Positions 15,537-48,583 of a stretch of 64,000 nt of DNA are shown piece by piece. How positions within the stretch are numbered: the stretch's first letter is position 1; every line of letters starts with the position of its first letter. The position numbers were made by a program, and so were the translations under genes. The stretch covers positions 1 to 64,000 of the forward strand of contig PKTM01000028.1 of NCBI GenBank assembly GCA_002869145.1. Direction: 5' to 3'. Source of the stretch: Denitrovibrio sp. (GTDB taxonomy: Bacteria > Chrysiogenota > Deferribacteres > Deferribacterales > Geovibrionaceae). The notes beneath the pieces were generated by a model. The model made no database searches and was not told the origin of the DNA. It worked only from the letters and a program-made list of their open reading frames with translations.

Positions 15537-17423
15537 TTATTTGAAAAGATTCTTTATTATCTCATGATATTTCTTTTCAATATAGTGTCTGCGTTTTTTC
15601 AGAGTATTAGTAAGTTCCTCCCCAAGCTTGAAATCTTTGTCGAGAAAAGAGAGATTCCCTAACTTCTCGTGTGACTTGAAGTTCTTTTTGTTAGAGAGAA
15701 TTTTATTGATATCCTTTTTAACATAATCAACTGCATGTTTTGAGTTTACATCAACATCGTGTTTGAAATCTTCGATTTTTTTGCTCATGTGCTCTTTCAG
15801 CTTTTCAAAATCAGGAATAATCAGTGCACCCAGACTTTTTTGATCCTGCCCTACAAGCACGGCATCTTTAACAAACGGAAGCATAGTTATGGCTGATTCG
15901 ATCTTTGTCGGGTCGATATTTTCACCACTGGCAAGGACTATAATGTCTTTGATTCGGCCGGTGATTTTAAGCTCACCTGTCAGGGTAAGCATTCCGAGAT
16001 CACCTGTTTTAAAAAAGCCGTCTTTGGTGAATGATTTTTCATTCTCTTCCGGCATGTTGTAATAGCCTGGAAAGACCTGCGGCCCTTTTACTATTATCTC
16101 CCCCTCTTCGCCAGGAGGGAGTATGTTTCCTTCTTCGTCAATAATTCTCAGCTCAGTGTCCATAACAGCCGGGCCGAGTGTTCCGAATATTTCACAGTTC
16201 AGCGCTCTGCCAGATATCGCAGGTGCGCACTCTGTCATGCCGTATGCGTTTACAATCCGAAGCCCTATGGCATCCAGCCAGTTTTCCAGATATGACGGCA
16301 GGCTGCCGCCGCCGGATACTGCTAGTCTAAGCCGTCCGCCAAATTTCGCTTGAACTGCTTTGAACTTTTTCATGGCTATAAGTTTTAGCGGCATAAGTGC
16401 TATCAATTTGAAAAATGAGCCGACTTTTAGAAAAAACTTTTTGACAGGATTTACTTTCTGAAATTCCGGCAGATGGTTTTTTATCCTTCGCAGCTGTCTG
16501 TTGTATGATGCGGAAGCTCTTGTGAGAACCATGAACATTCCAAGCTTTTTCTGTGATTGTTTCTCCAAAGAGGCAATGACTTTGGCATATAAAGATTCCC
16601 AAACTCTTGGGACAGAGGCTACTATAGTCGGCTTGTAGTCTTCCAGATCCTGCCCAAAAGTTTTTACGCTGGAATAGATAAGTGTGCATCCGTTTGCCAT
16701 TGCGAGCAGCTCCACTGTGTGCTCGAAAATGTGCCACGAAGGCAGTATGGATAGCCATGAGTCCTTGTCAGTCAGTTTTATTATGTCCGGCATAACGTCA
16801 AGGTTGTGCATCAGGTTCGTATTAGTCAGAATCACCCCTTTAGGATAACCTGTTGTTCCTGATGTGTATATTATGGTGAAAATATCGTCGCCTGTGTTTA
16901 CATCGCTGTTTTTTAACTCTTCCAGCTCTTGTTCAGTATATTTTCTGTCGCCCATTATTTTGTTGTAAGTGTGCACCTTGCTGAAAAGCTTGCCTTTGTT
17001 TTCACCTTCAACAAGGAATATTTCTTTAAATTTAAGGTCGTGAATAACAGTTTTTGCAGCCTCCATGGACTGTTCAGTTTAAAATATGGCATATGTGCTT
17101 TCGGAATGGTTTGCTATGAACTGCATTTCATCCATAGGTGTATCGCTGCCTCTGGGGATCAAAATAGCACCAATTGAGGCGATGGCAATATCAGTAACTA
17201 TCCAGGCATATCTGTTATCAGAGATAAAAAGTACTTTCGTTCCTTTTTTTATACCGTGTTTTTTAAAGGTTTTTGAGAGGATAAAGACATCTTCCAGAAA
17301 TTTCTGATAGCTTACTTTAAATTCCTGCCCTCCAGTTCTATAAACATAAGCTGTATTGTTCTGATACTTCTCGCATGCTTTTAAAAAAGTGCAGAATACT
17401 GTTCTGTTGTCTGTACCTTCCAT
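15537..17423 (-). pseudogene. Long-chain acyl-CoA synthetase, interrupted by in-frame TAA
   Basis: The whole frame encodes about 628 residues of an AMP-forming acyl-CoA synthetase (FadD/FAA1 type). It has the A3 phosphate-binding motif YTSGTTGYPKG, the A5 region YGMTECAP and the A8 region KTGDLGML. TAA at 17079-17081 (codon 115) splits it. The frame reads on directly as TEQSMEAAKTVI, so one base substitution explains the break. The C-terminal part could restart at an internal ATG (17064-17066) but would lack the first 115 residues of the substrate-binding domain. The intact role would be fatty-acid activation to acyl-CoA at the membrane. Confidence 0.85.
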
Positions 17424-17832
17424 ATTTTCACCACCATATCTATAGTTTATAAATTAAAAACGATAAGTTATGCAAGACAATTATTATCTCAATAATTTTG
17501 TAGCAACTATATATTTAAATTTTTTCTAAAGTTTTAATTTCGGTTAAAAAATACGCAATCCTGATAAGTTTATAAAATTTCAATGTTTTTTCTATGACAT
17601 CAGACAAAACTGCACAATTATTCAACAATATTGTGGAGAAAAAAGTGCTTGACACTCAATCCCTTGACAGTCAAGGGTTTACGAGAAGTTATTGATAGTA
17701 AATAGAAAATGCGAGTAGTCGACTTATGTTGATAATAATTGCAGAAAAGTGATAGATTTTATCCACATTTTTTCCACAAAAATAATCCTGACTACAAAGT
17801 AATTAATTTTTGCTTTAATTAATCAAAAAATA
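17424..17832. other. Long AT-rich intergenic region carrying element copy A
   Basis: No open frame with a plausible start is seen. The right part (17647-17778) holds the CTTGACA motif and DnaA-box element described separately. The left part contains the upstream region of the acyl-CoA synthetase gene on the minus strand. The rest is AT-rich without recognisable signals. Confidence 0.5.
17647..17778 (+). repeat. Intergenic element copy A: CTTGACA motif plus tandem DnaA boxes
   Basis: The element begins with GCTTGACA and contains the palindrome CCCTTGACAGTCAAGGG, then GTTATTG. It ends with TTATCCACATTTTTTCCACA, that is, two DnaA-box-like 9-mers (TTATCCACA and TTTTCCACA) separated by 2 bp. A second copy with the same order and nearly the same spacing (112 against 113 nt from GCTTGAC to TTATCCACA) lies at 38124-38256. 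DnaA box consensus is established knowledge; function at this place is inference. Confidence 0.6.
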
Positions 17833-17917: not shown

Positions 17918-19078
17918 TTAGTCGAGACCAAAATCCGAAAGCAGCTTATCAATATCGTCTTGTGATGCATCATCCACGGATGCCGGGTCCTTCTCTTGCT
18001 TAAGTTTAATGAATCCGAGTATAGCGCCTAGTCTTCCGCCCATATCTCTGACAGCACTTATTACCTTTTGGAGTTTTTGTTCAGTGATATCTTGGAATTC
18101 AAGCGCGTGCAGAATCTTAAATCCGCTACTGTCAGCTTGCTCAAGCTCTTGTTCCAGTTTAACTATTTTTTTCAAAATGGCCGCCGTATCTTTTTTGTGA
18201 ACCAAATCTTCCAGATCATTTATCTCTTCGATAAACTCTTGATAGTAGTTGTTTAATGTATCAGCATTTTCCATTAGATCCAGTGTGGCATCCTCTGTGG
18301 TCTAAGTTACCGATTCCAGAGTAGAGAGAACATTAGGTATATGTTCGTTTGATGTTGCCAGTGATGGGCCAATTTCATCCACACGTTTTTTTGTTTCCAT
18401 TATAAGATCAAGCAGCTCTTTAATCTCGCTCTTGATGTTAATGCCAATATCAACAGATTCGCCGTCAATTATTTTTTTTTAGAGTGATTTTAGTTTTTCA
18501 AATTCTTCAGCACCCGACTGCGCAGTTGTTGCGGAGATATTTTTCAGTTCTGCCATTGGGTCATCATCATCATCTTCAGACAGCAAATCATTGTCAGTTT
18601 CAGCACTTGCTTCATCATCTTTTTCTTGCAAATCAGCCGCAGGCTCATCCTCTTCCTCCGGCATGTCAAGTTCCAGTAGACCATCTTCATCTGAAATGTA
18701 TTCATCCAGATTTTGTTCATCCAAAGTTTGTTCTATAATATCTTCTGTCTCAGCAGGAACTTCCAGTTTATCTAAAATATCTGACATCTCGTCATTGTTT
18801 TCTAGATCATCTTCCAATTCGCCCAGAAGTTCTTCTGTGTCATCTTCTGCCAAATCTGATTCTTCTTCTACTTCGGGATCTTCTTCGATATCTAACACTT
18901 CCTCAGCAGGTTCTTCTTCTGTGATATCCTCATTTTCATCTTCAGATTCGAGACTAAAATCTTCGTCTATTATGGAATCATCATCTTCGTTTGTTTCTTC
19001 TGAGATTTCTTCTGGAGTGAGTTCTTCTGGAGTGGTTTGAGGCTCCTCTTCAGGAGCCTCTAATGTATTAGCTACTTC
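17918..19078 (-). pseudogene. cheZ: CheZ phosphatase, decayed: frameshift plus two in-frame stops
   Basis: The frame starts in the A11 run at the end of cheW and has a very acidic stretch (about 100 residues of Glu/Asp), then a CheZ domain. The phosphatase signature LEFQDITEQ is intact, with the Asp and Gln used by CheZ to remove phosphate from CheY-P. The CheY-binding tail DDIDKLLSDFGLD is also intact. TAA (18479-18481) and TAG (18302-18304) interrupt the frame. No ATG with a ribosome site opens it, so it looks like a continuation of cheW by frameshift. The last intact piece (18274 to 17918) keeps the active site but lacks much of the four-helix bundle. Either a pseudogene or an expressed recoded fusion; pseudogene is simpler. 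Confidence 0.8.
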
Positions 19079-20061
19079 TTTTTTTTTTTGTTCAGCTCTT
19101 CTGTTTCAGCCTCTCTTTTGGCCAGTTCAAGTGCGATGAGGTCGTCAAGTTCTACCTGCTCAACATGTCCATCTTCTGCATCCATCTTTGAACCGCTCTG
19201 GTTGAGGGCATCGTTTAGTATATCGTCAAGGTCATCTGAAGCTACTTCTTCAGATTTTTTTTTTGGTTCTTCCTCGTTTTCGTCTTCTTCTTTTTTCTTT
19301 TTGTTCAGCTCTTCTGTTTCAGCTTCTCTTTTGGATAGCTCAAGAGCAATAAGATCATCAATAGAGCTGCCGACTTCATCATCTGCGGAGCCTTCATCGA
19401 AAGTTGTTTCGCTTTCAATTTCATCTTCTTCTGCTGACCCTATGGCTGCAGTAGCTTCTTCAGGTTCTTCTGCATATTCCTGCTCTACTGTTGAGGCTAT
19501 CTCCTGATAGTTTTGTTCAGCTGAAGGGAGAGCCATTTGACCGAGGATAGTCTTTTTCAGGTCGCTTTCGATGGATTTGTCATCGTTTACAACACTGTCT
19601 ATGTCAAGAAGTATGATTAGTCTGTCCTGATATTTGCATATACCGAGGATGTATTCCTGACCGACTGTTCCCACAAGAGGAGGTGTCGGCTCAACCATGC
19701 TTTTATTTATTCTGATAACTTCTGTAACTTCGTCAACGACAAAGCCAATATTTTCTGTTTCGAACCTTACAACTATGATACGAGTTTCTTTGTCAAAGTC
19801 CATTTTATCCAGAGAGAAGCGAATACGAAGGTCTATTACAGGGATGACCTTTCCGCGAAGGTTCATAACACCGAGAACAAAACCTTCTGTTCGTGGCACA
19901 GAGGTAATTTCTACGGTTCTTATGATCTCCTGAATTTTCAGGACATCTATGGCATATTCTTCTTCGCCGAGCTTAAGTCCGACAAGCTGGATGACTTCCA
20001 TCCCTTCTCTGTAATCATTATTGTCGTAATCAAGTTCGCTTATTGGTTGTAGATTGCTCAC
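19072..20061 (-). CDS. cheW: CheW-type chemotaxis coupling protein with acidic C-terminal repeats
   Basis: Residues about 20-165 form a CheW domain (GEEYAIDVLKIQEIIR, GVMNLRGKVIPVIDLR, VVDEVTEV). CheW bridges chemoreceptors and CheA. The C-terminal half is an unusual acidic linker holding two copies of a motif of about 27 residues (IDDLIALELSKREAETEELNKKKK and LDDLIALELAKREAETEELNKKKK). The gene ends in TAG immediately after an 11-A run. With one more A the frame would run straight into the CheZ sequence. It is probably in one operon with the FlhG-like ATPase upstream (10 bp gap). Confidence 0.85.
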   Translation of the reverse strand: MSNLQPISELDYDNNDYREGMEVIQLVGLKLGEEEYAIDVLKIQEIIRTVEITSVPRTEGFVLGVMNLRGKVIPVIDLRIRFSLDKMDFDKETRIIVVRFETENIGFVVDEVTEVIRINKSMVEPTPPLVGTVGQEYILGICKYQDRLIILLDIDSVVNDDKSIESDLKKTILGQMALPSAEQNYQEIASTVEQEYAEEPEEATAAIGSAEEDEIESETTFDEGSADDEVGSSIDDLIALELSKREAETEELNKKKKEEDENEEEPKKKSEEVASDDLDDILNDALNQSGSKMDAEDGHVEQVELDDLIALELAKREAETEELNKKKKK

Positions 20062-38256: not shown

Positions 38257-40381
38257 GTTCAGATGAGTGCTCAAAGCTCTGATTATTCTCTTTGCTCATA
38301 TTTCTTAAGCACTGATAAAGGTTTTTCTCTTTGTGAAGAAAAGAGATGGCCAAAGCGTAAGCGATTTCAGGTTTTTTGCTATAGAAATCCCTTTTAGACG
38401 TTATTAGTCTTAGTGATAGGGAATGAGGAATTTTTTGTCTTTTAAACTCTTTTCTGAGTACTTTTGTCGGGTTCCATTTAAATCTTTCATTCAGCTCATT
38501 ACGATTCATCAGGTCATCTTGAGGTGCTCCTGCAATATTTTTTGAAGTGAGAATGGATGTCCATCTCCCATTTTTATAAAAACCTAATGATGCCTCTATA
38601 TTATACATGCAGTAGAAATGCGGAAAATTTATGTCAGTGTCTGCTTTGTAGGTTAGTGTTAAAATTATCTCTCCTGCCACTTTTCCATCTTCTATCATGT
38701 CATCAGGCACGGGTATTCCCGGCAGTTCTATTATCTCGTTGGTCACAGCCTTACCTTCATGCAGGAAGGTTGCGTTTTTGTCATCTGAAGCTATGGCCTC
38801 CGGTGTAGTGCCATAACCTCTGAGATAACACACCTCTCTTTGATTATTGTTCAGAAAAGTGTAGTGTATCAGCATTGTCTTTGTCATATTTGTAGATTTA
38901 AAAGCGAGACTGTATTTTTCATATATTTTTGCGGCAAGAGCTGATATCAGAGGCGCAGCGTGTGAAGTTCAACTGTCTTCAGCCAGCTCGTTCTTTTCTC
39001 CAATGGAAAAAACTCCAACAGGTCTTAGCTTTCCATATCGTTTTTCGTGTGCACCGCCAAAGCTAGCTAAATCGGGTTTTATAAATCCGCACGGTCCGGG
39101 ACCGTTTCTTGAAAATAGTGACGGTGAGTATTTTTTCTGTAGGTTGGTGTCAGTGTGACTAACGGAGCCGACTGTGATAGAGTTTACACTTTCTGCGGGG
39201 GAAGTGATTTTGCTGTCGTAGCCTGACGAGCCGAATGCGTTTCCGGCTGATATGATAAAAAGTACATCATACTCATATTGAAGTTCATCCAGAACACCTG
39301 CCGCAGGGGTGAAAAAATCGCCAACCTGAATATTTGTTCCAAGAGAGATGTTGTATATTTTTACAGTTTTATGGTATTTATCCAGTGCTATACGCATGTT
39401 ACGCTCGAAGCTTTCCAGAGTGAGTCTGCTTTTGGAAGGTATCATTTCGATGTTAAGGTATGTTATGCCTCCGAACTGCTCATCCTTAGCCAAAAGCCGC
39501 CCGCATACAAATGTTCCATGACGGAAATTTTTATCATCCGTATCTACAAAAGATAGCTTTGCAAGCTCCCACTCTTTAAGAAAAGATTCTTCGGATACTC
39601 CAGAATCAACTAACCCTGCCTTCGGATACGTTTTTTCTATGTTCCTTTTGTTTATGCACTCCAGCGTAACCTCACTGTGCCTGGTGTATTGTTCAGTGAA
39701 AAATATATCAGGCTCAGGACACACAGACTGAACAAGGCTATGGGTGAAAAGTGCTTCGTGCTTGCAGGATATTTCTGATGTTTTTACTCTGACGTACTTT
39801 TGCGAGCCAATCTCTGTGAGTGAAGCGCTTGGAGCATTTGTGCCATATTTTACAAAACTCAGTAGTTTTTCTGGATCGTTTTCACTTGTGAAAAGTTTTA
39901 TTAGCGAGTGCCCTTTGTTTGTTTCCGTTATTACAGAAGCATTCAACTTGTCCTGCTCATTTATAATGTCAAGATCTGCCAGGTGGTTTAGGGATGCTCT
40001 GAAAGCTCTGTTTCTGCTATATGAAATAATACTGCATAAATGATTTAGTTTCTGTAAAGAGTTTATCGCAAAAACAAGAGTATCCTCGCTGGTGCTTGAG
40101 CTAGGACTGACATCTGCGGTTTTAAAGAAATGGTATCTGAGTGATTTTGCCAGCGAGCCTTTTTTCAGAACTAGTTTGCTGAATACCGGCATGTCGAGGT
40201 TGTGTTCAAACGATTTATAGTAATTAAAGCCGTTTTTAAGTTTTTCCGAAGTGAAGTACGGATTAAGTGCAGCTCCTCCAGCTTCTCTTGGGCCTGCTCC
40301 TCTTGCAACTCTGGGGTTTGGCCTGTACATAGACTTAGAGAACCTGAGGATGAATGGGCCGTATAGTTCGCCACTGCTCAT
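38237..40381 (-). pseudogene. Subtilisin-like (S8) serine protease, in-frame TGA at the catalytic motif
   Basis: Start at 40381 follows GGGGGAAAC. The whole frame has 714 codons: an N-terminal region of about 200 residues of unknown fold, a subtilase domain with the catalytic Asp (GLVDSGV), His (RHGTFVCG) and oxyanion Asn (SAGNAFG), then the Ser motif. At 38969-38971 a TGA stands where Gly is expected in GTSHAAP; one base change from GGA would explain it. The frame then continues into a 240-residue C-terminal beta domain. Terminated protein would lack the Ser and be inactive. It resembles stand-alone or AAA-paired subtilases of defence-type loci, but no AAA partner is present. Confidence 0.85.
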
Positions 40382-47196: not shown

Positions 47197-48583
47197 TCAG
47201 CTAAAAAAACTTTATGCACTGAAACTCTCACGTGAGAAGCTTATTCCATTCGCCATGCTCACCTGCCGCAACTACCGGGCGAACTGGCATCATAGGCTTC
47301 TTGCAGAGAAGCTTATGGAGCTGGAACAGGGGGATAACTACAGGCTTATGGTTCTGATGCCTCCAAGACACGGAAAATCAGAGCTAGCATCCATCCGTTT
47401 TCCTGCGTGGTTTCTGGGGCGAAACCCCGACTACAGAGTGATAGCCACTTCATACAGTGCTCGTCTGGCAGAGAATTTCGGGCGCAAAGTTCGTGACTTG
47501 GTGGCTGATCCGAAATTTCCGCTCATCTTTGACGGAGTTTCTCTCAGCTGAAGATCAAAGGCTGCTGACAGGTGGGAAACTACATCCGGCGGCGGATACG
47601 TTTCTGCCGGAGTAGGGGGGTCTATAACAGGGATGGGGGGCGATCTGCTCATTGTGGATGACCCTTTCAAAAATCAGGAAGATGCCGACTCGAAGAATTA
47701 TCGTGACAAAGTGTGGGACTGGTATCAGTCAACACTTTATACCCGCATAGAGAAGGGTGGCCGGATAGTGGTTATCCTGACCAGATGGCACGAGGATGAT
47801 CTTGCAGGCAGACTGCTGTCTTCCGGTTCGGAGAAGTGGAACGTGATAAGCTTTCCCGCCATAGCCGAAACTGACGAGGAGCACCGCAAAACCGGCGAAC
47901 CCTTATGGGCTGACAAATACGGTGCGGATGCTCTGGCAAGGATACGTATGGCTGTAGGGACAAGAGTTTGGAATGCACTTTACCAGCAGAGACCTGCGCC
48001 TGACGATGGTGCGGTCTTTAAAAAGTCGTGGTTCAGAAAATATGAGATAGAGCCTGTTTTTGACTATATGATTCAGTCGTGGGATATGACTTTTTCCGGC
48101 GGTGATCAGTCGGATTATGTGGTGGGGCAGGTGTGGGGTGTTCGTGGTGCTGAACGCTATCTTGTAGATCAGTTACGAGGACAGATGGATTTTATGGGTG
48201 CTGTTCGTGCCCTGAGACTCATGAGTGAAAAATATCCTCAGGCCCGTGCGAAATATATCGAAGATAAGGCGAATGGTCCGGCAGTTATTTCTGCACTGAA
48301 AGGCGAGGTGCAGGGGCTTATCCCTGTGAATCCGAAAGGGAGCAAGATATCCCGTGCCATAGCTGTTACACCCCTTTTGGAAGCGGGGAATGTTTTTCTT
48401 AAAAAAGGGGCGAGCTTTTCTGATGAGCTTCTGGACGAGGCGGCACTTTTTCCGTCAGGGAAAAACGATGACATGGTGGATGCCATGACACAGGCACTCA
48501 GCATGACCGAAAAAAGGCAGACACCAAAGGCATCCTTTGCCGGAGCAGGAAGGCAGTCCGGCAGAATATTTGAAAAATACTGA
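47180..48583 (+). pseudogene. Terminase large subunit, interrupted by in-frame TGA
   Basis: The frame covers 467 residues. Walker A-type motif MPPRHGKSE lies near residue 70 and Walker B DLLIVDDP near 156; the nuclease domain contains SWDMTFSGGDQSDYVV near 295 and EDKANGPAVI. TGA at 47549-47551 (codon 124) falls between the two ATPase motifs, and the frame reads on as RSKAADRWETTSGGGYV, a standard terminase sequence. Termination would separate Walker A from Walker B and abolish packaging. The nuclease-containing 3' part could restart at ATG 47633. Either a single nonsense mutation or, less likely, readthrough. Confidence 0.88.

Follow-up and report, generated by a model that had tools for sequence, protein, structure and literature searches.

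Organization of the cheW-cheZ locus

The minus strand of the window (the whole 64-kb stretch of DNA analyzed here) carries a cheW gene whose CheW domain scores 134.3 bits against a cut-off of 23.5 (Pfam PF01584) and whose 3′ end reads AAC-A11-GAAG-TAG (Table 1). A preliminary description of this DNA had stated that cheW runs through 11 A residues into a stop codon and that one extra A would bring an acidic linker and a CheZ domain into its frame, and the window sequence confirmed this; the long frame is also reached with two A residues fewer. The stop codon had been placed right after the tract, and although it is present, it lies slightly farther on. The CheZ frame does contain the intact DxxxQ active site that had been reported, in the form FQDITEQ, and it is indeed broken by a TAA and a TAG codon.

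Table 1. Features of the cheW-cheZ locus; positions refer to the window unless a locus is named
Feature	Position	Strand	Basis or remark
Short product of 329 aa, from GTG to TAG: CheW domain with the beginning of the charged linker	19072-20061	-	ORF
Ribosome-site-like sequence AAGGGGTG upstream of cheW		-	
Second A10 tract, upstream of A11	19255-19264	-	Other frames close within 1-4 codons
A11 tract; one added A gives the CheZ frame	19079-19089	-	Sequence; A10-A14 at the homologous place in relatives
TAG closing the unslipped frame, 4 nt past A11	19072-19074	-	
9-bp RNA hairpin just 3′ of the A11 tract	19039-19060	-	MFE -19.2 kcal/mol for 56 nt, z -4.3
Acidic linker plus the first stretch of CheZ, +1 frame	18482-19078	-	Translation
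CheZ domain, +1 frame; FQDITEQ (DxxxQ) active site, CheY-binding-like C terminus SQDDIDKLLSDFGLD	17918-18560	-	Pfam match, family profile
TAA inside the CheZ part	18479-18481	-	Ser (TCC/TCT) in both sister species
TAG inside the CheZ part	18302-18304	-	Glu (GAA) in both sister species
Nonsense codons in conserved genes	L113 (G000:C10:212001-232000), 16497, 19546 and others		

The last open CheZ piece in the genome that contains the window (G000) matched the Pfam CheZ family (PF04344) with an E value of 4e-5 and 24.0 bits, below the curated cut-off of 30.7, which many relatives in the order exceed (for example, with 33.4 and 35.9 bits). A profile of the family matched structure 1KMI, an E. coli-type CheZ, with an E value of 6e-4, and the catalytic Asp and Gln of the DxxxQ motif are invariant in both alignments (A1 and A2). 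The structure model of the CheZ part shows a pair of long helices and another helix at the C terminus, but its mean pLDDT of 53.5 left it too uncertain to serve as a query for fold comparison. In the linker, a module of the form DDLIAxELxKREAETEEL is repeated (e.g., within 19072-19600, minus strand), as it also is in the outgroup fusions described below, and the linker pieces IDDLIA and DDLDDILNDAL appear to resemble the CheY-binding motifs at the CheZ C terminus and the FliM N terminus.

An A tract is conserved at the CheW-CheZ junction throughout the Deferribacterales

In a search of 40 relatives, CheW-linker-CheZ formed one open frame of ~550 to 735 aa in most other genera; in each of the three species of g1, the genus of the window, it was split at the A run. 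CheW-linker-CheZ genes occur throughout the Deferribacterales, with the DNA itself in the fused frame in 31 genomes, which supports the earlier proposal that the natural product was probably a CheW-acidic linker-CheZ fusion and marks this fusion as ancestral. Among the relatives examined, we did not find separate cheW and cheZ genes at this locus, each with its own start codon and ribosome site. The genome search found G013 and G020 to be without the gene, and there was no match in G022 and G032, which are incomplete genomes.

We could read the junction in 40 genomes, 32 of them tabulated in full and 8 added, in which a few frames that ran off contig ends were left unscored. Counting the A residues gave a run of at least 10 (A10 to A14, lengths that come from assemblies, in which homopolymer counts can be off by one) at the same place in 40 of 40 genomes from at least 14 genera, including every readable genome of the order whose CheZ part bears the active site. 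Outside genera g1 (A11, A14, and A11) and g4 (A11 to A13), the tract is nearly always exactly A10, mostly phased GAA AAA AAA AAN; the same nearly constant length of 10 holds outside family f1.

Such runs are rare in these genomes. Isolated A10 runs number ~0 to 10 per whole genome in the order and runs of A11 or longer are near absent, such that the sole site with at least 11 A residues in G001, G005, and G009 is the CheW-CheZ junction. When synonymous codons were resampled with the amino acids fixed, the chance of an A10 run was 0.08 to 0.70 per genome, which is not small because the linker is Lys rich; for A10 in all 14 genera the product is ~3e-7, an approximation that takes the genera as independent. 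This is a reasonable treatment, as even within g1 the synonymous sites are saturated with differences or close to it. In the 32 tabulated genomes, one of the three frames after the run leads into CheZ and stays open for 199 to 430 codons. The remaining two close nearly immediately, both of them within 5 codons in 31 genomes. Elsewhere in these linkers, both frames reach a stop within 4 codons at 12% of positions and within 6 codons at 22%.

We conclude from these comparisons that the A run at the junction is not a product of chance. The contrary explanation, a fortuitous run in a Lys-rich linker compounded by homopolymer errors in assembly, draws on the facts that homopolymers are error prone and that most of the genomes are drafts. 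We consider it very improbable, since the stops in the other frames are conserved, the four genomes of genus g15 agree on A10 and a required shift of +1, and G001 is out of frame even though it is a single-contig genome of 3,222,077 bases. Other tracts of A9 to A11 recur ~180 nt upstream of the junction in genera g1, g4, g9, and g13, where the alternative frames again close early, and this upstream tract is perhaps a second slippage site.

Two cases outside this pattern serve as natural controls. Members of outgroup family f10 of the same phylum have CheW-linker-CheZ in one frame and no A run of 8 or longer, and the fusion is therefore probably older than the tract. In G034, a member of the order, IEHSSEVDGK replaces LEFQDITEQK, so that the catalytic Asp and Gln are lost, and the A run is missing; as a single case, this pairing of a dead CheZ with a missing run is suggestive only.

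The DNA frame has changed repeatedly while CheZ has remained under selection

Nine of the 40 genomes carry the short frame in their DNA. CheZ is reached by a +1 shift in seven of them (G000, G002, G021, G033, G035, G039, and G045) and by a −1 shift in the other two (G001 and G014). On the tree, the distribution requires four changes of state, at least three of them on well-supported branches, and thus at least three to four independent frame changes.

In the out-of-frame genus g15, the dN/dS ratio of CheZ is 0.15 to 0.17, compared with 0.03 to 0.06 for CheW. By this measure, the out-of-frame CheZ is under purifying selection that keeps it well below the neutral expectation, if more loosely than CheW. 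The preliminary description had held that the CheZ frame of the window lacks a start of its own, with a TGA just upstream and no ATG with a ribosome site after it. The TGA is real; ATG, GTG, and TTG codons do occur in the frame, but no Shine-Dalgarno match accompanies any of them. A scan of 8 out-of-frame genomes revealed no start codon preceded by a Shine-Dalgarno sequence in the CheZ frame, and G014 and G021 had no start codon of any kind before CheZ. On these absences, an internal start for CheZ was rejected. Because the CheZ frame of the genomes scanned has no start with a ribosome site, CheZ must be reached from CheW through a change of frame.

Stop codons in the CheZ part of the window

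The preliminary description had offered decay as one reading of the interrupted CheZ frame, and this proved to be its weaker part, given that the fusion is found order-wide; at most, decay applies to the G000 assembly, with its many nonsense codons. In its full form, this alternative holds that in the window's genus a frameshift at the A run split the fusion and that CheZ is now a decaying pseudogene. The two nonsense codons in the G000 CheZ part speak for it, as does the presence of another cheZ in the same genome, a stand-alone copy that our search located in a cheY-cheZ-cheA operon (locus L001). We nevertheless think it unlikely. Past the tract, the frame stays open for 360 codons in sister species G001 and for 430 in sister species G002, the nonsynonymous divergence of the G000 CheZ is no greater than that between G001 and G002, and comparable nonsense codons interrupt many other conserved genes of the G000 assembly. 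The divergence implies that any loss of CheZ in G000 is recent.

When genes with an open frame in G001 were compared with G000, ~51 kb of conserved coding sequence contained about a dozen nonsense codons in G000, among them codons in FadD and in CheA of the cheY-cheZ-cheA operon; G002 has a few. This excess across conserved genes means that the stops in CheZ are not special to CheZ. The G000 stops may reflect either recent decay or assembly error. The first nonsense codons had suggested a G:C-to-T:A mutator or DNA damage in G000, an idea that was dropped, as the private changes overall are without such an excess. In the window, the FadD-like acyl-CoA ligase gene (15537-17453) has an in-frame TAA at 17079-17081 (minus strand), a position that encodes Glu (GAA/GAG) in the sister species. 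A subtilase-like gene has one in-frame TGA (38969-38971, minus strand) and a phage terminase-like gene another (47549-47551, plus strand), both in or near a prophage-like stretch.

Proposed slippage at the tract as the source of two chemotaxis proteins

Slippage of RNA polymerase on tracts of at least 9 A residues is established. We propose, with a probability of about 0.78, that one gene gives rise to two chemotaxis proteins by means of a conserved and mainly transcriptional slippage site. The polymerase would slip on the A10 to A14 tract and release mRNAs that differ in their number of A residues. Those that restore the long frame would encode CheW-acidic linker-CheZ (535 to 752 aa), and the rest would stop within a few codons, yielding CheW with about half of the linker (~310 to 370 aa). 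Such slippage would refill all frames and so leave the DNA frame nearly free to drift, fused in some lineages and short in others. The preliminary description had already raised fusion by slippage on the run, and this now appears likely for the window, with eight other genomes out of frame around an intact CheZ. The A run is probably a conserved two-product site and no accident, with the short CheW probably also a wanted product.

What the sequences show directly is a conserved tract, the stops that follow it, a DNA frame that changes among lineages, and selection acting on CheZ. From these we infer slippage in vivo, synthesis of both proteins, localization at the array, and phosphatase activity. 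Given the known role of CheW in receptor arrays, the CheW part would carry a CheY-P phosphatase into the array, and how much plain adaptor is made relative to the phosphatase-bearing form would be set by tract length together with DNA frame. We lean slightly toward the further reading that an order-wide slippage switch tunes array-bound removal of CheY-P through the CheW/CheW-CheZ ratio, the DNA frame drifting freely since every frame is available. Stand-alone cheZ is also present in most of the genomes searched, so CheW-CheZ would be a second, array-bound phosphatase and not the sole one. Against the proposal, most genomes are in frame and could produce the fusion with no slippage at all, and in G000, provided that the assembly is correct, the two additional stops would truncate the long form.

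Mixed shift directions among orthologs are taken as the mark of transcriptional realignment (PMC3711429). The present gene shows this mixture, with seven genomes requiring +1 and two −1. It also shares with realignment genes a homopolymer conserved at the junction (A10 to A14 in 40 genomes, where the class calls for about 8 to 9 or more) and an early end of the other frames after the tract (31 of 32 genomes).

Ribosomal frameshifting would account for the long product differently, through −1 slippage at an A_AAA_AAN heptamer aided by a downstream hairpin, as in E. coli dnaX. Such heptamers do lie inside the tract, and strong hairpins are found 3′ of it in several genomes of family f1 and in G028. 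The f1 cases include each of the three g1 species, with hairpins predicted in both sister species of the window's genome (z scores of −3.5 and −4.1). In most genomes outside f1, however, the hairpins are weak or absent, and a hairpin as a general stimulator was rejected for being strong mainly in several f1 genomes. A −1 shift, moreover, does not explain the product in all members, as seven of the nine short-frame genomes need +1 (or −2), and 10 to 14 A residues exceed what a −1 site needs. We regard frameshifting as an improbable main cause; ribosome sliding on the A run could do part of the work.

We give the same low weight to phase variation, in which the tract would change length during DNA replication and switch CheZ on and off between cells. 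That tract length differs among species and that the DNA frame has switched several times would fit such a process. The fused frame in 31 of 40 genomes would not, as random switching predicts about one third in frame, and neither would a length that outside f1 hardly departs from 10. Phase variation may act on top of transcript slippage and could add to its output.

Relation to known systems

To our knowledge, programmed slippage has rarely been reported in ordinary cellular genes outside mobile elements, with dnaX the classic case, and a core chemotaxis gene conserved order-wide would clearly extend the list, with the added advantage of a natural control on either side. The dnaX gene of Thermus thermophilus yields two products from an A9 tract after which the alternative frames run into stops (PMC1088944). 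The likeness to CheW-CheZ lies in the coding-strand homopolymer, the stops right after it in the two other frames, and, as proposed here, the pairing of a short with a long product (PMC1088944); CheW-CheZ differs in belonging to another pathway, in its A10 to A14 tract, and in DNA that is short-framed in some lineages. Shigella mxiE likewise consists of two overlapping frames joined only through an extra base, and its long product needs slippage (PMC1088944), but mxiE has a U run, whereas the DNA of CheW-CheZ is in the fused frame in some lineages of the order and in the short frame in others. The recoding clusters predicted by GeneTack also include poly-A frame transitions, with mixed direction read as a sign of transcriptional realignment (PMC3711429), and the main text of that paper makes no mention of CheA, CheW, or CheZ (PMC3711429). 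Within the literature library searched, no paper was found that ties slippage to CheW or names a CheW-CheZ protein. The CheW-CheZ fusion thus seems to be undescribed, and slippage control of it in a core signaling pathway is apparently an unreported use.

In E. coli, CheZ is held at the receptor cluster by CheA-short. There, too, a phosphatase is placed at the array, but in CheW-CheZ the phosphatase would be covalently joined to CheW, and a separate cheZ also exists; the fusion offers a direct test of placing a phosphatase at the array. CheV, a CheW fused to a receiver domain, is similarly a CheW-based adaptor with a second signaling domain, whereas the second domain of CheW-CheZ is a CheZ phosphatase whose presence, we propose, is set by slippage. 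Gene callers can split such genes into CheW and a lost CheZ.
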